Translations under genes and position numbers: made by a program
Shown here: positions 30,382-46,428 of the stretch, in pieces
Layout of the letters: each line of letters starts with the position of its first letter
How positions within the stretch are numbered: the stretch's first letter is position 1
NCBI GenBank assembly: GCA_033439295.1
Contig: JAVTLE010000014.1
Span: forward strand, 4,278,001-4,342,000
Length of the DNA: 64,000 nucleotides
DNA from: Deuterostichococcus epilithicus
Lineage: Eukaryota > Chlorophyta > Trebouxiophyceae > Prasiolales > Stichococcaceae
Direction of reading: 5' to 3'
The notes under the pieces: model-generated
What the model saw: only the letters and a program-made list of their open reading frames with translations
What the model was told of the DNA's origin: nothing
The model's database searches: none

Positions 30382-33300
30382 ATGGCTCGGGTTGCCGAGT
30401 GGGCCATCCCGGTGGCTGTCTCGCTGCTGCTGCTGGTGCACCTGGTGGCGGCGACGGCCGTTCACGGTCCCGGCGCTTCAGCGGCCACGTCGACAGCGCT
30501 TGCCAGGTCAACCGCGTTGGCGTATCAGCCGGCGCGTCAGCGGAATCGGCGACTACTTGTCCAGCATGCACACCTGGACGTCGCGCAGGCAGCAGCCAAG
30601 ACTGCCGTGCAACGCGTGCTGGTGGGTCTCGACATGCCTAGGGCCGGCATGGCATCGCACGCTGCGGCGTGACGCCGCGCGTTGGGATCCCTGGCGTCTT
30701 GGAGAAAGTTTGTTCCAGCCTTGAGCCTGCACGCCCCAGCTGTCCATGCACTCAAAGCGTGGCAGCCTGGCTCTGTTCGGGTCTTGCGGATATGTGTCGT
30801 CAAGGTCGCACCAGACCTGTTTGGCTGCAGATCTGCTCGCCGCCGCTGCTTTGCCATGCGCAAACACGTATGGATTTCATGCGTGCAGTCCCTGAGCCAG
30901 GCGATGTACGGGGAGGAGGCGTGCCTCAAGCCATGCCGAGAGGGCTTTCAGTGCATGTGGCAAGCGGCGTATCTGGGCGCCTGCGATGCCGACGGTGACG
31001 ACCAGGCCTGGCTGTGGGACGCTGCCACGCTGCACATCCGGGAGCGGGCGTTGCAGAACTCTTGTCTCACGATGTGCCCCAGCCAGGTGAGGCGGCTGTG
31101 CAGCAGTGCAGCGCTGCAGTGGTGTGGCGGTCTGGCGGGCCCTGGCGCCTGTGACTGGCCGAATGGTGCTGGCAATGTCGCGGGAGGCACTGGCTGGGGG
31201 TTCAGCGCCAAACGGGCACCAGCAAAGGCTGCAAACGGGCGTCGAATCCGGCGCCAATGAGTGCCAATGACGACGCCGAACAGCCGCCACCAAAGGCTCA
31301 TCTTGTTGTGCGCAGAACGCGACGGCGGGTCCCTGTTTCGTCCAGCAGCAGGGGATGACCACAGCCGGCGACCACCTGGGCGTCATGTGGGCGCCATGTG
31401 TCGACTCTCCCTACCAGCAGTGGCGCCAGGTGCGCAGTCGCTCATCCTGTCGCACCGTGCTGCGTGCGTCGGCATTGCCCGCTGCAGCCCCAAGCTCCGA
31501 GGGCACACCGGCAGGCAGCTTGTGGCCAGTATGGACGCTGACTTAATAGCTGCATCCAATAGTTGCATCTGACAGCGACTTTCAGAGCAAAAGGAAGGTA
31601 TGGACAGCCCTGCGTGTTATTGTGTGCAGGCACCGGATCAGCAGTGGCGGTGCGCCGCAAATGACTACTGCCTCGCCGCAGAGACGCAGTCGTGCGGCGC
31701 CGTCAGCTCGTGCACTAATGCCACTGCCGCATCGGGCTCCCAGCGCGCCGCCATCGCGGCGCCCTGCGGCGGCGGCGCGGCGACCGCGTGGCGCACAGCG
31801 CTCNGCGNGCCGGCGGCAGGCGCCCGGACCATCGCGGCAGCATCCGACCCGCAGCCGCCGGCGCTGCTGCCCACGGCGCCGTTCACTGTGGAACAGCTGA
31901 CGCTGGGCGTCCAGCTGGTGGCGATTGGGCTGCCGGGCTCGCAGTGCCTGGCGGCAGAGTTCTCGACGCCCTGCAACCCCGCGGCGGACACCGTCGTGTG
32001 CGCCTGGCAGAATGTGGCGGTGCGGCCATGCAACCTGTACACCGAGCCGCCGCTAGCGGAGAGCCCCGAGGACTTGTGGGTCGTCGACCGCACTGCCGGG
32101 GTGATGCGCTGGGCCGGCGCGCCGCAGGTGGGGCTGCTGCCTGCCGCACCTTCTGCCTGCCTACTGCGTAAGCCCCAACCCGCATCGACTGCAAGCCAAG
32201 ATGTCATGACCGTCGCCCTGGCCGCCTGCCCTCCGCTGTGGTCACCAAAAGCCCCACCTGGAGCGCAGGCAGACATGTGTCTGGACGAGTGCCGCCCTGG
32301 CGACGTCACCGGCGCGTGCCTGTTCCCCAACGCCAGCAGCAATGCTGGTGCGCTTTCGGCACCACCGCTCTGTACTGGCGCAGTGAAAACGTGCTGGCAC
32401 TGCCGCCATTGCAGCCGCCGACCCCTTGCTGACGCCGCCATTTCTGCCGCAAAAGCACCTGCAGCTGCAGCTGCTGCTGCTGCTGCTTGCGGCGCACCGC
32501 GGTCTGCCATTTGCGGCATGAGACTCCACTTCACGAGCTGAACTCCACGTTCCAGCCAGAGTGCAGGCAAACAGAGGCTCACTGCTTGGGCTGCCCCCCG
32601 CTCACTGCTTGTGCTCCCCGCTCCAGGGTGGCGACAGTGCAGTGGCACCACCTACCAGCAGTGGAACAGCAGCAGGGCGCAGGAACCGGACGCAATTGCG
32701 GTGACGCTCAGCAGCAAGGCCGGCGCCAACGCGACCTGCCTGGGGTACAGCCCGCTGTGCGTCGCGGACGGACAGCCCACCAGGCCGCTGGAGGTGAGGG
32801 AGCTTGTAGGTTTTGGTCCCAGGCCTTAAGCGCCAGCCATGCTCGTGCTCGCTGCAAGACACTGTGCACTGAAAGGAAGCGCCGCAGATGGTGACCCCTG
32901 CGCAGCCATCCTGCCTCGCCGCTGCAACATCCGCACGCCAAGGCGCCTGGTGGCCAGCATGCCACCGGCTGTCCGGCCAGCCGCGGGCGCATGTCTCGGA
33001 GAGCACACGCTGAGACACACGTTGCAACTGCTGTGCACGCAGGAGGTCACCCCGGCTGGCACGGTGGTGCCTGATTCTTGCTGGGACGCCTCGGCCAACG
33101 ACAGCCTGTCGTGGGCGGCAGCCCCCGTCAGATCCAGCGCCAGCCAGGTGCGCCGCGGGTGGTTCCTGGTGGCGCCAGGCGCCAGCCTGACGGCAGACCC
33201 TGCAGATGTTCTGACTGGCAAGCAGGGCGCTCAGCAGGTGGGGGGCGGGGACAAGTGCTGGTCTTTCAGGCTGTGTCATGCAATGCATCAACAGGCAGCC

Positions 33301-36300
33301 TGGCACTGGGCACACCGCTTCCCTGAGCTTGGGGCGTCAGCCTCGCAGAAGGGCTGACCCAGCGCCTAGGCCCATGGCCGCGCTGTGCACTCGCGGCAGC
33401 GCCCCGCGGCAACGCCAATTCAAATACCTCCCGCCTTGCCTGCACAGGTACCCATCCTGAACAATGCACAGGTGGAGACTTGCGGCGGCGACAACACGCC
33501 GACGCAGCTGTGGACGGCAAACTACATCATGCCGCAGGGCGAGATCGCCAAAGTCTCGTTCCGCTCGGTGAGGCCTGTCGTTCGTTATGCGCTGCTGGCG
33601 CGGCTGCGCCGCACCTGCCAAAACCTGTCTGGCACGGGCATGCTGCATTGCGCACAGTCTAGGCTCGCACTTTGCCCAGCTGGTCTGCACATTGACGCTG
33701 CATGGACAAGCTGTCCAGCTGACCGACCTGTGGCGCGACCCAGATGTCAGCTGTGGCATGCGCCCCTGTGCGCACTGCTGGCTGCGGGCCGCTGGGGGTT
33801 TTCACTACGTTGGTGTGTCAACACCCCTAGGGCCGCAGCAACAGAGCAAGCGCCGCTCCACCCGGGCGCTGCTGGTGACACAGGCCCTTCCCTTTCCTCG
33901 CTGCAGGTGGTGCTGACTCCTGAGCCTTCTTCCCTTTGCTTGCTGCAGGTGGTGGTGCAGCTGACAGTGCGCCTCCAGGGCACCGACCTGCTGGCCTTTG
34001 ACGCGGCCGTAGCGATGGCAGTGCTGGCAGCCCTGCGCCGGCAGGTTCAGGCCGCCACAGTGCTGAAGCTAATGCTGCAGGAGACGGAAATCTTTGCGTG
34101 CCGGGACCCGCGCCGCCAGGGCATCGGGTGCCGGCTGTCGCCGCAGCAGCTTGCGGATGGTGAGCGGGCTCTGCGCTGCCTGGCTGCGGGCAGCTCGGAC
34201 ATGCAGCCTGGCAGTTGCATGAAACTTGGATATATGACGACACTTGCACAATGTCGAGGTATTGCACCTGGGTCGGTGCATAGTGCAAGTGCTTAATGCT
34301 ACCCTTCAAAGTTGAACGCCCAGGGTACCCCCGCTCTGGGGTGCAGGGGACTGCACTTGCGCCAAGGTCAAGGGACGCTGTCTGACGGAGACTGTGACTT
34401 TTGTGCAGCGACTGGCGTCGGCGCTGCTGCATATGCGGGCCTTGCACAGCAGGTCATGTTCACGGCCAACTTCACAGCAAGCGGCGAGGCCGTGCTGGCC
34501 ATCGCCGCATACCTGCGGCGCGACGCAACGACCGGCATCAGCGCCGCTGTGTCAGCTGCGCTTCGAGACCTGGCGTCGGTGCGTCGTGCCCTATCGTGCA
34601 ATGCCGCATCGGCTGCGGCACTGCTTTCTGTTGCGTCCCCCCAGCACCCGAAATGCATCGCGCCGCTGCCGCCGCGAACCTGGCTGGTCGCCCATCGGAC
34701 ACTTGCGGCCAAACGCTCTGGAGGCCCTCAGATGGACTGATTCAGGCACTCCCAGGAGCCTCCCAGACCCAGCCTTGCTTTCTGATGCGTGCATGTCTGC
34801 TGCAGGGTCGGTCGGTGGGCGGCGTCGACTTCGCCACTGTCGACTCGCTGGACGTCATGGTCTCGCGGCTGCGGCTGGACCAGCAGATGGTCACTGCCAC
34901 CGCTGGTGGCGGCGCCGGCCTCAGCGGCGGTCGCCTGGCGGGCCTCGTCGTGGGTGAGGTCCCGGTGCAGCATCGCTCTCCGGTGGCGCTAGCATTCTAT
35001 CCGTTTTTGTCGATGGGAAGCCATGGTCTGGCGGCGCAATCGGTATTCGCTGGGGCCGACCCTGGCTGGCAGCGCCTGCAGTCGTCCTGTGCAAGGTGCT
35101 GCGGCTCGAGAGGGGTCGACTCACAGCCATCTTATCATGGAGGAGCAGTCTGTTTGCGACAATGAAAACTGCTGGTGATTGTGGCGGTATGAGTGCTTGC
35201 AGGCGTCGTGGCGGCCGTGGCGATCACATTGGCGGCTCTTGCCGCATTTGTGGTGCGCCGCCGCCGCCGCCGGTCTGATCTGCTAATATGGCACAGGGTG
35301 AGTCATCCACACGGACTGTCACGAGGTGGTGTCTGCAGCACAGTGCTCTCTGGCCTTGCAAACTATGCGCCAAGTACTCCGGCTGTAGGCCTGTGAAAGG
35401 CTGCTGAGTGTGGCAGGGCAAAACATATTCTGGGAGATGTTGACCTCCTCCGCTTTTGCACATTTAGGGTTTTAAAAGCACAGTCAGCCAGACATGTACC
35501 TAAACCATGTGATGGCGCAAGCTTCATCTACTAATGTGCCTCTGAAACGTGAGGCACTCGGACTTCTCAAGGTCACTCATTCTGCTTACCCAGCAGAATG
35601 GCACCGGGTACTCCAAGGACTCGGACAGCATGCTGGCCGGCGGCAAGCCCAACATCGAGCGGCAGTCCATCTGGAGCAGGATTTGTAAGTCCCGTCCCAC
35701 TCTCCTGGTCTTTGTACTCTCCTGGCCGCTGCCTCATGCCAGGGCCGCAAGCGGCTGCCATTGACAGGGCATGACTTGTGTTCCTGCGCTCAAGGCTTCC
35801 ATTGCTTTTCTGCTGCACAGCCATGGGCGGCAGCAACCGTGGCATGAGGACGATGGGCAAGATGGACGCCAGCATCCAGGTGCGTGCAGAGGTGCTTGCG
35901 AAATGCATCTGCTGCCTCTTGGGGAGCCATACAGCATGCAACAGAGCCAAGCCTGGCTGGCTGACTTGATGTGTTGATGCGCAATAGATGTATGCAGATG
36001 ACACATGGGGAACGGCCGGTAGCTGCTGCGCAGTGAGACCCTCATTCGCACATTTAACTTACTGCAGGGTTGGTACATTGACCCTGGGGAGATTGCCATC
36101 TGCAAGCGAGAGGACGGCACCGACTGGCTGCTTGGTACCGGCAGCTATGGAAAGGCGCGGCCCCCACTCACCCTTCCTGCTGGCCTGGCATTGGCAGGGT
36201 TTTGTGCAGGCTTGCACGTGTTGGGCTGGCTCTGGCTGTGGCTTGCCGCCGCAAGGGCGTAACAGCCACAACTTATTAGGGCTTGGTGGGTTCGGGCCTG

Positions 36301-39300
36301 TCAAGTGGTGCGATTTGCACCAATGGACTGCGGCGTCACCGCTTTGACGGTCTTTCACTTTTCTCTGCTCCCCCTCCGCAGGTATACAAAGCGCTGCGGG
36401 GCGGGGTGCAGGACGTCGCCGTGAAGGTGCTGCTGTGCAGCGACGAGGAGCAGCTGCTACAGTTCGAGAAGGAGATCGGCATCCTCAAGTCCATCAGCTA
36501 TGACCGCAACATCGTGCAGTTCTACGGCGCCACCATGGTGGGCACCGAGCCCATGCTGCTGCTGGAGTACTGTGAAGGCGGCGACCTGCGGTAGGGTGTC
36601 GTCCCATCTCCTCCTGATCTGCAAACTCAGTCCCCCTCTCACCTAGTGTTCGATGTCACAGGAGTTGCAACGCTCTGGGCTTCCTGCCGGTGGCCTGCCG
36701 ACATAATTGTCTTTCTTGTCCCAAAGACGAATTTGGTGCAATCCCTATGCCCCTACCCTCTTCCCCACAGCCGTCCCTCTGGAGGTGCTAGTTCATCTGC
36801 TGCTGACCAAACATCAAATCCTCGCCATTCTTGCCACAGGGGCGCGCTGGCGGCAGACAATGCGGAGGCGGACATTGACGGCGAGCGGCAGCTGGGCTGG
36901 TACAACAGCGGCCACCGCATTGCGCTGGACGTTGCCCGCGGCCTCGCCTTCCTGCACCAGATCAATGTGCGCTTTGCTGGTATCCCTGTGCAGCAGGGCG
37001 TGCCGCCCTTCTGCATTTCCCAGGCTGCAGCTCTCCCTAATCTGCCACAGTCCCCTGCAGACTGCTGATGGGTTTCCGCCCCCGGAGTAGGCGGGCGCCC
37101 AGGGTTGTTTCTACCAAGCTCCTTCCGGCCCCCTGGGAGCTCGTCATGATGCCGGTTGCTACTTCCAACGCAGGTGGTGCACTCGGACCTGAAGTCGCTC
37201 AACATCCTGCTGACGCGCGGATGGGAGCTGGCCAAGATTGGCGACGTCGGTGTCGCGCGCTTCATGCACTCCATGGAGGTGGGGCCGCCAAACTCTGCGT
37301 GGGTGTGTCTTGGCATCAGCTCCGTTGACAACCCTACCAAATCACTTTGGTGGAGAATTGTGGCTATACTGCCGACATGCAATCTGAAGGCTCTTTTTGG
37401 TGCTCCAGCCAATGCGCCCAGCTGCCAAACCCTGAAGGTGCAAGACACCTTCACCACTGCCGCAGGAGGTGAACGAGGTGGCCATGGGCACGTTCGCATA
37501 TGCCAGTCCCGAGATGCTGCTCGGGATCGACTCCGGCGTCAAGGTGGGCGCCCAAGACCCGCCGGTTGTGTGTCCGCCCACTGCTCAGCTGTGCAAGGGG
37601 CACACCGGGCTGGCCCCAACGATTCCTGCCATTGTCCTGCTACAATGAAGCCCGACAATCAGTGTGCAATGACGTACCTGGGGCGCCACACCGTGTGCAG
37701 AGCGACATCTTCTCCTTCGGCGTGGTGCTGTGGGAGATCGTGACCGGCGGCTTTGCGACGCGTGGGCGACTGCACCCGCCGGTCGTACCGGAGCAGTGCC
37801 CGCAAACCATCGCCGACCTTATCAGTGGCTGCATGAAGGTGCGGCATCCTGCGGGCGACGGCACCCCCCGTCCAGCTTACACTGGCGTGCCGCTTGCCGT
37901 GGCTCTGGAAAGCGCAGAGAGGCCTCGGGGAGTTGCAGACCCGGCGATTGTTCACACATCATTCACAAGTGCTGGCATTTGTCGTCGTGTGAAACGGAAA
38001 AAGTCAATCATCCCCCTGCCCCCTCGGGGCCTCGGCAGCCGCCAAAGCTTGCCAAAATGGTACAACGGAAATCCTGTCTGAACCCTCGACTCCTGATCTG
38101 AGCAGACAGACCCAGCTGAGCGTCCTGGAGCGCGCGAGATATTCGAGCGCATGCGCGACGCGGTGGCGCCCATGGACATCTTCCCCAGCGGCGACTGCCT
38201 TACAGCAGCAGCCGCAGCAGCAGCCGCGGCCGTGAGCGAGGCCACGTCCTCCAACCACGACAGCGGCCCGCTGACGCCGGTGCACGAGGTGCGGGGGCCC
38301 TACCGTGTGGTCTCTCAAGCTGAAGGCTGTCCTTTCAGAGAATGCGCGGCGTGCGTGACGTCAGCTGCGTGGTGCCCCGCGATGGATGCCAGCGCAGCTG
38401 CACCCGCCTGCTGCCTGCTGCCTGTTGCCTGCCACACAACCCACTTCATGTGGCATAGTTCCTCGGTGCCAGAGTCTGATATCCCACTCTGCCCCCTGCA
38501 GGAGCAGCATGGGCGGGGTCCTTCGCCGCTGGGCGCGGCGCCGGCGCCGCAGGAAGCCAGCCCGCTGGACGCCCGCCTCCCCAGCAACACCAGCGTCGCT
38601 TCGTCGCAGGGTGGCGGCGGCGGCACCGGCGGCACCGGCAAGAGCCGCGTGAGCCGCACCAGCAGCAGCCTGGCGCCCGGGCCCGTCGCCCAGGTTGAAC
38701 GCTCCTCCGTCAGCCTGACCAACAGTGAGCTTTCGTTTCCGCTCTTCACGTGAAAGACTGTCAACAGTGGTGCCGAATTTTACGGTGCCTAGCTGGGTGT
38801 CTGCCAGCGAATGGCTGGAATGCCCCCAGTCTCGTCAGGTTCCAGCTGCTGGTTCATGCTGTATTTGCTCCGGTTGCATTGCAGGAGGACCGATTGTTGC
38901 TGGCGGCAGCGCTCCTGTATATTGAGTTGGTGCCGGGACAGCATCTCAGGTGCTCGGCCTGTACTGACACACGTGCATTCACCGCTTTTTGCAGGCTCGT
39001 TCTCTCGCCACTCGGGGCACGCAGCCATCCCGCAGCGGGACACGCAGCGATGGCACCGCCATGCGGCGGTGGCACGCTTCCGAGCAGAGTCGGCGCCTAT
39101 GGCGGGCTGGATCGCGGCGCAGCAGATGCCGCCGCCGACTCCCGGCGCGCTGCAGCGCGGCAACAGCATTAGCAATGTGCTGGCGCAGCCCGTGACGCCC
39201 CTGAATGGCTCGGTGCGTGCTTGACCCTGGGTTGCATTTCAAGCTCTTCATTCTGCACAAATGCCATCTAGCGCATGCGCTTCCTTCTGCTTCATCGGCA

Positions 39301-42300
39301 GCCTGAAGATTACTGTCGGCGCACATTGGGCTGCGATCATGAGCGCTGTGGCCGGATTCTCTGAGGCATGCCTGCTCAACAGTGAAGCAGCAGAGGACTT
39401 CTACCCCCCCCCCGGGGTCAACCCTCGCTTCTCTCATGCATGACCTGCCAATGTCCTGCTGTCACACAGTCCCTCGCACGGGTGCTGCGGCCGACGATCA
39501 GCTGCGGCAGCCACGGCCGCGGCTTCAACGCTTATGCCGAGTTTGATGCCGCCACTGCGTCGGAGCCACAGGCGGACTCGACCGCGGAGGCGGCGGATCT
39601 CACGCCACTCAAGACGCAGTCCAGCCCCGAGTGTTCCACGGCGATGACTGCTGCGGCCGCTGCCGTCGCCTCCCATGCAATAGACGCAGGTGAGGTACTC
39701 TTGGGGCTGTCATGAGGAGACGCAGGCAAGAGCTCGTGAGAGGTTCTTGTGTCTCGACTCGAGTGGCCTTGGCTCAATGCTGCGCCGTGTTGGCGAGGGG
39801 TTCACCCGGCTGCCTATGGTCCCAAGCAACCTACCAGACCATCCAGCCTACCAAAGCCTCACGAGTGTTTCCGAGATGCGAACCAGCGCCATCACACACA
39901 TCACCGACACAACGTTTCTGTGCGCTCGCAGCCGGCCTCAGCCGCCGGGCGTCGGCCACCTCCACAGCATTGGGCGGCTCCCAGCTGAACCCCTTTGCAG
40001 AATTTCTCGCCGCAGACATCGCCCGCGCCGCCGCCGCCTCCGAGGGCGACAGCCCCAGCGTCCGCATCACTGCCGGTCCCCCACCGCCCAGCACCTTCAG
40101 CGCCGCAAACTATTTCAGGCTTCCCTCGGGCGACCGTGCGGACTCGGCCAGCATGCTGGCACGGCCGGCCGGCGGCTCCGCTCAAAGCCCCGCTTCCAGC
40201 TGCGACAGCGCCGCTGCAGCCGGCGGCAGCAGCTCCGTTTGCGTGCGCGGCTTTGGCNGCAGCGGCCGGCCGCCGCTGCCGCCGAGCCCGCACGCGCGGC
40301 TGTCGGCAAGCGAGCATGGCCCCGAGGGGGTGAAGGTGTGTGGATTCAATCGCTGCGCGCATACTGACTGCCCCAATGCGCTGCTGTGTTGTTGTGTACT
40401 GCCCAGCAAAGAATGCTGGCAAGGCAGGCGGCCGCCTGCGTGAGTGGCAACAACTGTGGCAGCTACAACAGGCAAGGCTTGCGCCTGAGCTCTAGCCGCC
40501 AACTCTAACTCCATGTATGCTGTCGACGTGCTGCAGCGGGTGTCGCGCATTGCGGAGCACCCGTCGTGGCATGTGGCAGGCTCTGTCAGAGCTGCCTCGG
40601 ATTCGGTGACGAATCCTTATGCCTTCTTCAGCCTGCCATTCCCAGCGGCGCAGCCGGTAGGTTCTCACCCTGTACCCTGCCAGTGCTTCTCGCTCTCTTG
40701 TGTTGGCTTCGTATCACACCGAATTCAAACCCATTGGCACAGTGAGCTACGTGGCTGGACCCATGGTCCTGTAACCCGTCCAACCCTGCATGGATCACAA
40801 CCCATGTCGTCTGCTCGCCTGTGATCCTCGCAAGCATGGCGCTTGCAAGCGTGCACGTGTGCGGTGTCCAGTATGGTTTGCTTCAGGCGAGCTTCCTGCG
40901 AGCCGAGTCGGATTGTGGGCAACGAGAAGGTTTTCTCCTTTTCAAGAAATAATCACTTGCAATGTCTTGATGCAAGTCTCCACCGTCATGCTTTCGCCGC
41001 CGCAGGCAGCCACAGATGCGTCGCCAGGATTGGGCAGCCCGCCGGCTGAGAGCCCGTACCTCACATTCCTGGAATCTCCGTTCCAACTTGGCGAGCCACC
41101 CCGGTCGGCCAGCCCCATGCCGCACCATGCCGACGTCGGCGGCGCCGCGGCGGCAGGACCGGTGGCGGGCCTGGCCACATCGGGGGCGCTGTCGGAGCTC
41201 AGCCCCAGGCCGGCGCCGCCGCCCAACCCCTTCGCCACGGACTCGCAGGGCTCGCTGTCTCCGCAGGTGAAGCACTGGGAAGCAGTTTGTTCATGTTGGA
41301 GACGCACTCCTGCACCTGCCTCCTGTCTGACGGTTGAAGCTGGCTGCTGCTCACGCTGCGGAAGTCCCGATGCTACTACACTAGCATGCTGGGGGCTCGG
41401 GGGCAGTCGATGTCATGTATACGCCGCGAACACACACGTTCACCTGTCAATGGCCGGTCTGCTGCAACTGCAGAGCTCGGTGTCGGTGTCGCCGCGGAAG
41501 CCGCCGCCCAGCCCGTATGCCAGCCTGATGCTGCAGTCGGCAGGCGAGGAGTCCTCTGACAGCGGCGGCGGCGGTGGCGGCCGCCCGGCACGGCGCCCGA
41601 GCAGTTTCGAGGCGCCGCCGCNNCCGCCCCCCCCCGCCGCCGCCGCCGGNAGCACGGTGGGCCGGCTGCCAGCGGCGACAGCGACAGCAAAGGACACGGC
41701 TGCCGCACCGCAGCTCGCAGTTTTGGAGGAGGGCCGGTCCTCCAGCCTCGATGATCGCACCATGTCCTTCGACAGCTGGAAGGTACGGCCGGCAGCGGTG
41801 GCTTGAATCATGCATAAGACATGCCATGTCGCCGAGGGTTCACCAGGTCACACCAACTGATGTGCAACATTGAGCTGTGTCTACCACAGCGTGCTGTACA
41901 GTGCCTGTCTGATGGCAACTCCGTCTGCTGATTGATCCTCAGGTGCCTGAGCTCATGGAGGCAACCAGCAGGAAGGATGCAGCGGGCAATGGCAGCGGCG
42001 CTGCCTTGCCAACAGCCCAGACCGTCCAGCCTGGCTCTCCCGCCGGCAGCTCCCCACGGCATGGGCGGCAGCAGCAGCAGCAGCAGCAACGGCAGCAGCG
42101 GCAGCGGCAGCAGCAGCAGCGACGGCAGCAGCGGCAGCAGGCCTCAGTCGCGTCCGCGCCGGCCGCCGCCGCAGCGAGTGCCATCGCCGCTTCGGCAGAC
42201 CCGCTTCGGCAGACCCGCTCCGGGGGTGATCCAGTCCCGGAGCTGCGGCAGCAGCGCGGCAGCGCAGCGCGGCCCTCCGGCGGCATGGTCAGGGAGCTCA

Positions 42301-45300
42301 TCCCGGAATGGGAAGCCATGGCAAAGCCCACGGCTGCCTCCTCGACGGCCGCCGTCTATTCCGCCGCGCAGCTAGCGCCGGCTGCGCCCACCATCGCCGA
42401 GGCAAAGCCATGGCAGGGCTTTGCGGCGCAGGTGCTGCCGCGGGGCCTGTCCAGCGTGCGCCGCTCCACCGCACCGGCGATTTCGCGCCGCAGCAGCTTT
42501 GGCGGCGACAGCGGCGATGAGCCTGCCCTGAGCCACCCCATCTTTGTGCCTGCGAGCAGCATCTCAGCGGCTGCAGCGCACGCAGACATGCAGCAGGGCA
42601 TGCTGCGGCAGTCCGGCAGCACTGAAGAGGCGACAGTGAAGACGGCGCTCGTGGCGGACGTGCCTGCCGCAGCGACGTCTGCAGCAATCGCAGTGGCGGC
42701 TGTGCCCCCGTTTGGGGCAGCAGCAGTGGCAGCGCCTGCGACGGCGGCGGCGGCGGGTGTGCCGAACGCGGCAACACGAAGTGGCAATCTGCTTGGCGGG
42801 CGCCACCGCATGTCAGAGAAGCCAGCTGCAGCGCGGGCAGTGCAGCAGCGGCCGGCAGCCGCGCCGCAGATGTCGCCCAACCCCTACGCCGCCTTCCTGG
42901 AGGCAGGGCAGACGACACCGCCAGAACCCCAGCCCAACCCCTACGCATCCTTCCTCGACACAGACGCAGCGCCGGCGCCGCCGCAGGCCTCGCCAAAGCC
43001 CTACGCCTCTTTCCTCGAGTCGGCCGTAGTGCCGCCACCGCCGCCGCCGCAGGCACCGGCAAACCCCTACGCCTCCGTCCTGGGTGCGGCCCCGGCACCG
43101 CCGCAGCCGCAGCTAGGGCCGCCGCCAGTGCTGCCGGCTACAGAGGCGCCCGCGACGGCTCCGCAGCAGCTCGGCGTCGGGCCTGCCCCGCCGGTGGCCA
43201 GGCCGTCAATATCGAGGCTGTCCATCGTCTCACGGGCATCAGTGTCCCCTGGCTCAGTGTCTCGCGGGTCGGTCTCACGCGGCTCAGTGTCCCGTGGATC
43301 CGTTTCCCGGGCCTCGCCCGCGGCGGCGACAGGCATCGGCGCAGCGATGGCTCGCCGCGCGCCGCCAGAGGCCTCACCAAACCCCTACGCTGAGTTCCTG
43401 GCGCCTGCGGCGTCGCCGCCGCAGCCGTGCGCCGTGCCACAGGCGGCGTCAGGCGCGGAAGGCGCTTCAGCCTCCGGCCCTGGTCGCGCCACCAAGNAGC
43501 CGGCGCCGNCCGTCAAGGCGCGGCAGCTGGCGGAGCAGGCGGAGGCAACCTCCGCGCTGCTGGCGTCAGCCGCGGCGTACAAGGCCAGCCGTGCGGCGAC
43601 GCCCATGCGGTGAGTGCATCGCATCCCGCTGCACCACATGCTGACAGTCCCGTGGTGTATTTTTTCTCTGGGGCTGTGGATATGCAGCTGCATCCAGTCA
43701 CATCAGGTCGGGAAAGCGGCTGCGTCGAGCAGCAAAGAGTTTTGACTCCTCCACAGGTCTTCGAGCCTGCTTTACGGGCAGGAACTGCGTGGTCCACCAG
43801 GCCGATGGCGCGCTGAATGGCGTGGGCAGCCAGCAACTGAGTTCGCGACATGCAGCCTCTCTCACCCATGAGACCAACCCTGAGGGATGTTGAGAACACA
43901 AGTTTGGTTGCGCACACGAGGTTAACGCTCATGAGGATGGTGACTCTTATGCTCGCAGGCTGCCGGTGGAGGGCTTAGAGGAAGTGGCGGCTGCAGCGGA
44001 TGCCGCGGAGGCGGCGCTGTCGAGCCGCTGCGCGTCGGTCTCCGGCCCCGACACCCCAAAGCCTGTCCGCGAGCCGACGCCGCAGGCAGCGCCTCAAGCA
44101 TCGCCTGAGCAGGTGCACCGCTGCGTCCTGGAGTTGCCACGCACGCTGGCCCCGGCTTGCTGGCCGGAAGGGGACCCTCTGCTGGCCAGCCGATGCGGGC
44201 ATCGACTGCAGTCCGCATGTCACTGCATCCCTGTATGGCAGCGCACGCCATGCAACCCCCATGCGCGATGCGCTGCGGCTGTTCCTGCTTGCCAGCAGCC
44301 TCTAGCGACACATGGATGCACCGGAGGGCCTGACGAACCACCTGCACCGCTGCCCCGACAGCGGCCGCTGCTGCGGCGGGCAAGCATCAAGCGCCAGACA
44401 CAGAAGATCCGGCCGTCGATGTTGCCACTGGCGGCACTGACCGCAAAGGGCAGCGCCTCCAGTCATTCCCTGAACCAGGTGCGAACTGTCAAACAGCGCA
44501 AGTCTGTGCTCTCATCACCTTCGCCATTCTGAGGCGTGCCCGCGAGTTCGTGCACCGCTGCCGACAGCCATTGACTCAACCATCAAACTCCCAGATGCCC
44601 GGCCATGCGTTTTCCACGACTTGATCTTGACAAGCGCTGCTCCACTGCAGACCCCCGCACAGGCCTTTCAGCGTCTATCACATCAGCCATGCATGTTACG
44701 ACCCCGAACCACTTTTCGACTCATCATTGCACGCTCCAGTCCAGCGACTGGTTGACGAATCCTTGTGTTCCAGGATTCCCTCTCGGCGCTGGATGCCATC
44801 CTGGAGGCACGCAGCGCGGCCACCAAGGCCTCTGGCGGCAGCGGCGGCGACGTACGGCTGGCCAATGGCGCGCAGCTGGCGGGCGGCCTGCAGCGGGCGG
44901 CGCTGTCGGGCGGTGGCCTGCAACGCTCGGCGCCACCAGCCATCCGCACCGTGCAAGTCGCCTACGGTGGGTGACTGGGTGTCTGTGTGGCAAAGATCGG
45001 ACAGCAGCGAAAATGGCCACGAGCGTGAGAGAAGTGGGGGTGGATGGGGGCCACCCTTCCTCAGTGTCCAAACTGGCGAAATTCCAGGAATGTCCAGCTC
45101 TGATAGCTTTGCACCAGGCGGACCAGCTGCAGCAAGTCGATGATGCTGAGCTAGGCGGCCAGCCGGAAGAGCACCAGCTGACAGCGGTCTCAACCCTAAA
45201 CCCAACGCTGCAGGTCGCACGCCGCCGATCAGCCCCTTCATCGGCGTCTCGGAGGCCGCAACCGCCGTGAGGAGCGCCAACTCGCGGTCCGCCAGCGTGC

Positions 45301-46428
45301 CCGCCGCCGTGCCGGAGCACAAGGAGATGTCGCCGTCTGGGTCGCCCGGCCGGTGAGCGTCTGGTGCTCTGGTCCTTGGATCGGGTGTCAGAGTACAATT
45401 GCCAGCGTAGGCCATCCTTCCGATTCAGGAGCTGCAACCCCTGCGTGCCGAGGTGGCAGGCGGACTCTGTGGCACTGATGTAGATAAGGTTTACCATTGA
45501 ACCTCCAAGACCTCATGTCCGGGAGTAGTGTTGCTGACATGTCGCTGTGGCAACGACAGGCTGCCGCTGCCGAAGAGCCCCTTTGCAGAAGGTGGCCCAG
45601 AGGACGAGGGTGTGGCGAACTCCTTCTTTGGCAAAGTGACGCCATACACGCCAGGCCAGTCAGGTGCGCACCACGAGAAATACAAGAGACCTCCCATCTT
45701 CAATGTGGGCCGCCGAAGATCAGCTGCCGCCGGCCCGTACAGTCTTGCCACCCGTCCTGCTGGCGCCAGGGTCATCCTTGCTATGCCAGGCGATAGTCCG
45801 GTTCGTTGTACCAAAAAACGCCTCACGAAGCGCCAGTGATAGCCTGGACGTGGACAATATTGCGTTCGTACCAACCTGGACATGCTGTGAGGCGCAGGCT
45901 TGGCGCTGCGGCGCGTCGCCAGCCTCGGTACAGGCCCGCTCTCGTGCGAGCCGTCTTCCACATCAGGTTTGCTCACAGCTCGCACCTTTGCACCGATATA
46001 CCAGCCGGGTTGAAGCACAACAGAATGTATAGTATCTGCATTCTGCATGTCGGCTGGCATGCCTGCATGTAGCCCTGCTCCTGGTCCAGGGCATGCTACG
46101 TTGCACCGTTAAGCATGAGTGAGTGCCTTGAAGGGAGAGAGTCCTCCTGATATCTGTGCAGAGCATAATCCTGCAGCCGGTGATTTGAGTCCAGCAACTC
46201 CTGGCACCGTAGCTCTCAAGTGGCGGAGATCCCAGGTGGCACGCTGACACTGCCATTCGTGCGCAGCTGGCGGAGCCAGCAAGTCCGGCAGCCGGGCAAC
46301 GAGCCGGGCGGCATCACTGCGGGCGGTGGCGGAAGCGGAGGAAGCAGCAGATCGCGAGCTGGACCACTTGATGCACGGCTTGACCGACTGGAGCCGCGCC
46401 GAGCGCGGCGGACTACTTCGCCGCTGAC
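30382..46428 (+). CDS. Receptor-like TKL kinase with Cys-rich QxW (ricin-B-like) ectodomain and NPY-motif tail
   Basis: About 35 exons. The start at 30382 gives 'MARVAEWAIPVAVSLLLLVH', a signal anchor or signal peptide. The ectodomain (30882-35000) is Cys-rich with repeated QxW signatures. A helix at about 35202-35275 (VVAAVAITLAALAAFVV, then RRRRRR) crosses the membrane. The kinase domain follows (36068-38170): 'GTGSYGK|VYKAL', 'DVAVKVL', 'FEKEIGILKS', 'VVHSDLKSLNILL', 'IGDVGVARF', 'YASPEMLLG', 'SDIFSFGVVLWEIV'. The tail (38200-46428) is long and Ser/Pro/Ala-rich, with a repeated NPYAxFL motif, and ends in an exon reading 'ASKSGSRATSRAASLRAVAE...GLLRR' to a stop at 46428. Inferred role: perception of an extracellular glycan or other ligand and phosphorylation of cytoplasmic targets. 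Several ambiguous bases (N) fall in exons. The gene could be over-joined at its 5' or 3' end, but ectodomain-TM-kinase continuity is strong. Confidence 0.8.
30882..33567 (+). other. QxW / ricin-B-like extracellular repeats
   Basis: Successive exons carry the hallmark of beta-trefoil ricin-B lectins, a Q-x-W close to a Cys and a small hydrophobic strand: 'DDQAWLWDAATLHIR...NSCLTM' (about 31000-31070), 'SPYQQWRQ' (31408-31431), 'PDQQWRCAANDYCLA' (31633-31677), 'TTYQQWNSSRAQ' (32650-32685) and 'TPTQLWTANYIMPQGEI' (33500-33550). Cys residues are frequent and N-glycosylation sequons (NAT, NAS, NSS, NDS) are present. Whether it folds as one or more trefoils, and binds sugar, cannot be told from sequence alone. 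Confidence 0.6.
33885..33966 (+). repeat. Duplicated splice acceptor and exon start
   Basis: CCCTTCCCTTTCCTCGCTGC and the following AGGTGGTGCTGACT (33885-33918) are repeated at 33925-33965 as CTTCCCTTTGCTTGCTGC then AGGTGGTGGTGCAGCTGAC. Each copy has its own polypyrimidine tract and CAG. The second acceptor (exon from 33949, 'VVVQLTVRLQGTDLLAFDAA') gives the coherent protein. Using the first would insert 14 residues (VVLTPEPSSLCLLQ) in frame. Confidence 0.75.
36068..38170 (+). other. TKL-type protein kinase domain, non-RD
   Basis: Exons 36068-36154, 36382-36591, 36839-36966, 37172-37277, 37466-37542, 37701-37839 and 38109 onward encode all subdomains: glycine loop, VAVK lysine, alpha-C Glu in 'FEKEI', gatekeeper region 'LLLEYCEGGDL', catalytic 'HSDLKSLN', metal-binding 'GDVG', 'ASPE' and the closing 'PAERPGAREIFERMR'. 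HRD is replaced by HSD (non-RD) and DFG by DVG, while the catalytic Asp, Asn and Lys are retained, so activity is plausible. The intron after 'GSYGK' appears to use a GC donor (36155). Confidence 0.88.
42058..42145 (+). repeat. CAG/CGG trinucleotide-rich coding repeat (polyGln/Arg)
   Basis: A run of CAG with interspersed CGG codons in the tail exon of the kinase gene encodes QQQQQQQ and RQQRQRQQQQ-like sequence. The frame is set by the flanking motif-bearing exon (41943-43611), so it is coding. Confidence 0.8.
43225..43320 (+). repeat. 12-bp Ser-Arg-Gly-Ser-Val coding repeat
   Basis: Units of about 12 bases (TCAGTGTCCCGTGGAT and variants) encode 'SVSPGSVSRGSVSRGSVSRG' and more in the kinase tail. 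Regular SxSRG spacing offers many basophilic phosphorylation sites. Confidence 0.75.

Follow-up and report, generated by a model that had tools for sequence, protein, structure and literature searches.

The 64 000-nucleotide stretch of the Deuterostichococcus epilithicus genome analyzed here (C12:4278001-4342000, ‘the window’; the host genome is 46.8 Mb in 21 contigs) contains a gene whose sequence supports its characterization as a receptor-type kinase of the tyrosine kinase-like/receptor-like kinase (TKL/RLK) type with a long tail. In this tail, as well as in the tails of two paralogues that do not align with it, copies of a short motif recur; judging from residue enrichment around tyrosines, the common core of the motif is N-P-Y-x-x-F. 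The window kinase gene and the paralogue genes are intron-rich. The parts of the window gene are as follows:

30382..30468, plus strand: start codon and possible signal peptide, MARVAEWAIPVAVSLLLLVHLVAATAVHG (translation, judged from sequence)
35203..35297, plus strand: transmembrane exon, VVAAVAITLAALAAFVVRRRRRRSD (by inspection)
36068..38165, plus strand: protein kinase domain (Pfam match and PDB match of the spliced domain)
36068-36154, 36382-36590, 36840-36966, 37174-37278, 37466-37543, 37701-37838 and the start of 38106-38288, plus strand: kinase exons
38166..46427, plus strand: cytoplasmic tail of 1493 aa, through the stop codon 46425-46427 (spliced model)

Gene models were spliced by hand, guided by the sequence at splice sites and by the phase of the reading frame. 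The model of the window gene, which starts with the transmembrane exon at 35203 and ends with the stop at 46427, has 25 exons and 1843 codons, the partial first codon and the stop included; the phases agree and there are no internal stops, thus the motif sites and the kinase fall into one reading, just as the original prediction had supposed. A hydrophobic N-terminal stretch at 30382 was recognized by eye from the sequence. The transmembrane exon precedes the kinase, with RRRRRR following, and similar stretches were seen by inspection in both paralogues. One intron of the window kinase, starting at 36155, is of the GC-AG type; two more such introns occur in the model of paralogue B.

The PK_Tyr_Ser-Thr family matched at 36280-36594 with 36.1 bits (cut-off 23.1); another stretch stayed below the cut-off. 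The top PDB match of the spliced kinase domain was CTR1 (E 2.8e-27), and plant CTR1 and BRI1 led the list; the best 60 of 2614 matches also included ZAK, IRAK4, TAK1 and the animal receptor kinases CSF1R and TrkA. The catalytic Lys, the catalytic-loop Asp and the metal-binding Asp are all kept in the spliced sequence (VAVK, HSDLKSLN, GDVG, SPE). The catalytic loop is of the non-RD kind (HSDLK) and DVG replaces DFG (37174-37278); the paralogues have HGDLK or HGDMK together with DVG.

The following motif copies, full or degenerate, were found in the tail, all on the plus strand:

39527..39547: NAYAEFD, degenerate copy
39988..40008: NPFAEFL, Phe copy retaining F at position +3
40612..40632: NPYAFFS
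41051..41071: SPYLTFL
41225..41245: NPFATDS, NPF class without F at +3
41510..41530: SPYASLM
42879..42899: NPYAAFL
42936..42956: NPYASFL, inside a tandem-repeat array
42996..43016: KPYASFL, inside a tandem-repeat array
43062..43082: NPYASVL, inside a tandem-repeat array
43380..43400: NPYAEFL
45231..45251: SPFIGVS, PF class
45576..45596: SPFAEGG, PF class

All 11 sites listed in the original prediction were present, 0-4 bases from the positions given there (KPYASFL starts at 42996 rather than 42995, SPYLTFL at 41051 rather than about 41055); the degenerate copy at 39527 was not in that list. The regular expression of the original prediction gave 18 matches in six frames of the window, 11 in the tail and 7 elsewhere, one of the latter (36740) being situated in an intron between kinase exons. 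The tail has 10 copies of the pattern [NSK]P[YF]A versus a mean of 0.19 in shuffled sequences; none of 2000 shuffles reached 10, nor did any of 2000 when residues were shuffled inside 60-residue blocks (mean 0.22). For [NSK]P[YF][AL]x[FLV] we counted 9 copies versus 0.03 in shuffles. With NAYAEF (39527) counted, 9 of the 14 tyrosines of the window tail are inside motif copies. NPFATD and SPFAEG are the listed Phe copies without a hydrophobic residue at +3. Genome-wide, the DNA pattern for NP[YF]AxFL had four matches, all in the window gene (reversed control: two).

Those tail exons that were scanned against Pfam had no significant match. The tail is rich in Ala, Pro and Ser, in agreement with predicted disorder. 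AlphaFold2 applied to 42849-43448 alone (200 residues, single sequence) gave a mean predicted local distance difference test (pLDDT) score of 53.6, i.e. a disordered stretch; since single-sequence structure models are often poor, this lends weak support to disorder. Beside the motif block, at 43239-43309, there is a short tandem repeat SRGSV in 15-bp units, and a related SISR-S stretch is present in paralogue A; these stretches are possible kinase sites.

A kinase search of the same genome returned 110 exon-level matches (those of the window included), from which we read 20 stretches representing 18 kinase loci beside the window gene. Clustered motif copies were present at 2 of the 18 loci:

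C12:1496.6-1503.6 kb: paralogue A, kinase and tail model
C13:23.8-33.2 kb, minus strand: paralogue B, kinase and tail model

Both paralogues splice to kinase-plus-tail models with no internal stops; for A the model starts with a transmembrane exon, while for B a stretch resembling a transmembrane segment is located upstream of the model. The kinase domains are 68.7% (window-A), 65.3% (window-B) and 59.8% (A-B) identical. In a FastTree tree of 18 tips, built on an alignment projected from tblastn pieces with one locus dropped for coverage, the three motif-bearing kinases formed a group with support 0.977 (support 0.22 for the order inside the group). Judged by these models, the window gene is one of at least three related, predicted receptor-type kinases in the genome. 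An apparent cluster of related kinase exons occupies G000:C10:505-593 kb; the stretches read there have no NPYxxF tail.

The tails of the paralogues, 806 and 1468 aa long, could not be aligned with the window tail, yet all three hold NPYxxF (4 copies in the window gene, 6 in A and 5 in B; shuffle means ≤0.001). BLAST comparison of the three tail pairs at E≤1 found a single 18-residue match (E 0.65), with the motif inside. In a comparison of 14-residue windows the top match of each tail pair scored 50-51, versus 47-49 for the maximum of 20 shuffles; each of these top matches contains the motif, and low-complexity and C-terminal matches rank below. The statement of the original prediction that the motif persists while linkers diverge was thus borne out by the paralogues. 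Downstream of the kinase at the other 16 loci (one with only 247 downstream bases, one with only 77 aligned residues) there was neither NPYxxF nor NP[YF]xx[FL]; Y..F counts there were from 0 to 4. Searched against its own genome, the tail block matched itself and one chance sequence (E 0.87). Viral contigs searched with the tail block, the kinase and the three-kinase alignment yielded no confirmed relatives. The same alignment searched against genome contigs found 40 loci, all labelled bacterial, 22-31% identical and none algal, which were not used further.

When the 6 kb preceding each paralogue were compared with the frames of the window ectodomain, there was no convincing match (one match at E 0.004 over 43 aa); the kinases being 60-69% identical, it looks as if the ectodomains had been exchanged or evolved very fast. 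The putative ectodomain exons of the window (31300-32800) carry a repeated QQW element (SPYQQW, PDQQW, TYQQW), to us reminiscent of QxW lectin repeats; the one QQW stretch scanned (31573-32541) had no Pfam match. Scans of the 64-kb window for tRNA genes and Rfam families were both empty; the light-harvesting family PF00504 had 39 exon matches in the host genome, which together with the intron-rich genes points to a photosynthetic eukaryote.

Repeated peptides may arise by expansion of a repeat without any common function: copies would be duplicated in a fast-evolving, low-complexity tail. The original prediction had denied simple repeat expansion, and for a part of the large exon this denial failed. 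Tandem Repeats Finder (TRF) detected arrays of 60-66 bp units at 42932-43110, and among the five copies of the large exon codon sharing was 0.80 versus 0.50 expected (45 comparisons); given the arrays and this excess, the five copies look to have arisen at least partly through local duplication. Over all pairs of 28 sites codon sharing was slightly high too (0.61 versus 0.54). The other window copies show no codon excess (0.33 versus 0.44 expected, 24 comparisons). Codon sharing was 0.61 versus 0.58 inside A, 0.64 versus 0.55 inside B and 0.62 versus 0.55 between genes. Neutral expansion fits the arrays and the codon excess of the large exon; it does not fit the copies without such excess, nor three non-aligning tails that all retain the motif and have it in their best mutual matches. 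On these grounds we rejected simple repeat expansion as the whole explanation and regard a functionless array as very improbable.

To define the motif we computed which residues are enriched near tyrosines, of which the three tails have 43 in all. Enriched were N at -2 (20 of 43 versus 0.8 expected), P at -1 (24 versus 4.9), F at +3 (24 versus 0.9) and L at +4 (11 versus 2.6); A at +1, a fixed residue of the NPYAxFL-like consensus of the original prediction, was barely enriched (14 versus 8.7). We therefore redrew the shared core as NPYxxF. The earlier pooling of Tyr and Phe copies had to be given up as well: F is at +3 in 18 of 24 PY sites versus 2 of 18 PF sites (Fisher p 4.5e-5), the remaining PY sites having L (3), V (1), G (1) or Y (1). 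F is at +3 also after 6 of the 19 tyrosines without a preceding Pro. As the +3 rule differs in this way, the Tyr and Phe copies look like two interspersed motifs, NPYxxF and xPF. Among the 23 NP[YF] sites of the three tails 18 have Tyr and 5 have Phe; the NPF copies number 2, 2 and 1 per tail.

The genome-wide DNA pattern for NPYxxF, an exact one that misses intron-split copies, had 51 matches, 15 of them in the three tails, versus 48 for the reversed control; judged by eye, the match list held no NPYxxF clusters elsewhere. PDB searches with motif peptides returned only weak matches (E 0.68 and 1). In literature searched by term, NPYxxF, NPFxxF and NPYxx had no match.

We compared the redrawn motif with known ligands. 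PAM2, the MLLE ligand, has the spacing N-P-x-A-x-x-F; it was rejected by inspection of the listed sites, whose Phe is one residue nearer. One could also think of hydrophobic-motif docking to another kinase, e.g. as an FxxF-type ligand of the PIF pocket of AGC kinases. Several copies do read [YF]xxF with small or hydroxyl residues next to it. PIF-pocket ligands are not known to carry N-P ahead of their aromatic residue, and as a rule there is one per kinase; we regard such docking as a quite remote explanation. The comparison with NPxY ligands of PTB domains, raised in the original prediction, fails since there is no NPxY in any of the three tails; also, PTB families had no match in the genome (a search without a positive control). 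An EH-type ligand of the NPF kind is a possible comparison for those copies that read NPF, 5 of the 23 NP[YF] sites. Thus, of the proposed receptor kinase with a multivalent tail, the kinase and its long, motif-bearing tail, predicted to be disordered where tested, were retained, while the consensus, the pooling of copies and the PTB comparison were not.

The reading that we tentatively prefer, at a little less than even confidence, is a disordered multivalent docking tail read by clathrin adaptors. The motif copies would act jointly as weak binding sites; the mu subunit of AP-2 or AP-1 would read the Y-x-x-Phi part, and the NPF copies would be read by an EH domain; the strength of receptor clustering and uptake would then depend on the number of copies. 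The docking tail is backed by the two paralogues of like layout, whose non-aligning tails keep the motif, and by the residue enrichment around tyrosines. For the endocytic part there are two further points. First, the separate PY and PF rules resemble two known types of endocytic ligand, and YxxPhi, a Tyr with a bulky hydrophobic residue at +3, fits 29 of the 43 tail tyrosines (10 of 14, 9 of 15 and 10 of 14 in the three tails). Second, candidate readers exist: the genome has 10 matches to AP mu exons, and the exon at L049 reads VFLDVVESVNLL and keeps F-L-D, whose F and D presumably line the Tyr pocket, as in rat mu2; one EH exon was above the cut-off, with a Trp in KVWAMAD that we take to be the ligand-binding Trp. 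There are precedents in plants: AP2 is reported to use YxxPhi on BRI1, IRT1 and PIN2 (PMC13176895), and EH1.1 of AtEH1 is described as binding the double NPF of SCAMP5 at about 33-59 uM via its Trp (PMC8144573). With mu and EH exons in the genome and these plant precedents, clathrin adaptors would be the most economical readers.

Several observations weigh against an endocytic function. AP mu needs no N-P before the Tyr and usually accepts Leu at +3; since Phe dominates +3 and the N-P is strict, beyond what mu needs, the motif may have a dedicated reader. The established ligand of EH domains is NPF, and NPY is mentioned 0 times in the main text of PMC8144573. The 36 NPYxxF matches outside the three genes do not exceed background (48 in the reversed control), thus NPYxxF as a general sorting signal has no support here. 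Of the 16 other kinase loci, 3 contain a single copy of the looser [NS]P[YF]xx[FL], and a few have a single NPF or NPY. Finally, the gene models themselves depend on the logic of splice sites and phase, without RNA.

A docking tail read by a dedicated algal protein, a signalling scaffold or a condensate former, instead of endocytic adaptors, is a minority possibility that we consider nearly as likely as the clathrin adaptors. The motif is stricter than YxxPhi and clusters in three related genes only; against a dedicated reader stands the very resemblance of the PY and PF rules to endocytic ligands, and no candidate protein for this role was found. A further docking site may be offered by the C-terminus, where the three genes are alike:

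46359..46382, plus strand: LDHLMHGL, LD-like C-terminal element; similar endings in both paralogues
L027:7010-7090, and L033 near 321-280 on the minus strand: C-terminal elements of the paralogues

The endings read RELDHLMHGLTDW, AELDLLMRDLSGY and RELDVLISANSMTW. LDxLMxxL fits two of the three (LDHLMHGL and LDLLMRDL; shuffle means for the LD pattern ≤0.007), and the third gene, with LDVLISAN, does not fit. As this likeness is in the last exon of each model, it supports the gene models. In a PDB search at E≤10 the window C-terminus had a sole match, the 28-residue paxillin chain 6iui_C, which at E 1.1 is not significant; the focal-adhesion-targeting domain had no match in the genome (no positive control). 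One could speculate further that in NPYxxF we have a so far undescribed short linear motif and that a reader of its own exists for it. Receptor kinases with multivalent Tyr-motif tails would then have evolved in this lineage separately from those of animals and choanoflagellates, with an LD-like helix at the C-terminus completing the tail; we hold this larger proposal to be somewhat unlikely.

Another alternative concerns phosphorylation: the kinase or a partner would phosphorylate the NPY tyrosines and SH2-like readers would be recruited, as in RTKB2 of Monosiga brevicollis. The architecture is alike, in that kinases of one family have disordered tails in which a Tyr motif is repeated, only 5 of the 14 tyrosines of the window tail are outside the motif, and the presence of CSF1R and TrkA among the best 60 of 2614 PDB matches is in line with it. 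However, plant CTR1 and BRI1 rank first among the PDB matches, Phe takes the place of Tyr in 5 of the 23 NP[YF] sites, and SH2 domains, like PTB domains, were not found in the genome (0 matches in a six-frame search without introns and without a positive control). We consider a phosphorylation tail improbable.

We also compared the window gene with described systems. With plant receptor kinases of the BRI1 type (YxxPhi and AP-2, PMC13176895) the window gene has in common the RLK-like kinase, the YxxPhi-fitting Tyr motif and AP mu in the genome; unlike them, it has many copies of the motif, all in a long tail that follows the kinase, and in these copies N-P precedes the Tyr and Phe is at +3. 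With the NPF of SCAMP5, a ligand of AtEH1/Pan1 (PMC8144573), it shares NPF in a disordered-type region and an EH exon in the genome, while Tyr occupies 18 of the 23 NP[YF] sites and +3 Phe is mostly at PY, not PF. The paxillin LD motif has the consensus LDXLLXXL (PMC7703752); LDHLMHGL and LDLLMRDL resemble it, with Met at the fifth position, whereas LDVLISAN of the third gene does not and the paxillin match was not significant.

To our knowledge, little is known of the wiring of receptor-like kinases in unicellular algae. In the titles and abstract openings searched we saw no description of algal kinase tails of this kind. Tails that drift freely and keep one short motif offer something concrete to test, namely a peptide of six residues together with two candidates for its reader; they would make an independent case of the multivalent Tyr-motif tail design known from receptor tyrosine kinases of animals and choanoflagellates.

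A similar design is that of Monosiga RTKB2. Its tail is reported to carry six RM2 repeats, and isolated RM2 is disordered, serves as a kinase substrate and binds an SH2 domain once phosphorylated (PMC3584944). In both systems the receptor kinases form a family whose kinase domains are related and whose ectodomains are diverse, and there are Tyr-bearing elements in disordered C-terminal tails which, as far as the searches here go, are found in no other proteins. RM2 is a repeat of ∼80 residues around a predicted Src/SH2-type site and belongs to a tyrosine kinase (PMC3584944); in contrast, the unit in the window is a 6-residue motif with free linkers behind a TKL-like kinase, in a genome where no SH2 was found. 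By analogy, the overall design would be like that of Monosiga RTKB2, with a different kinase type, a different motif and different likely readers.

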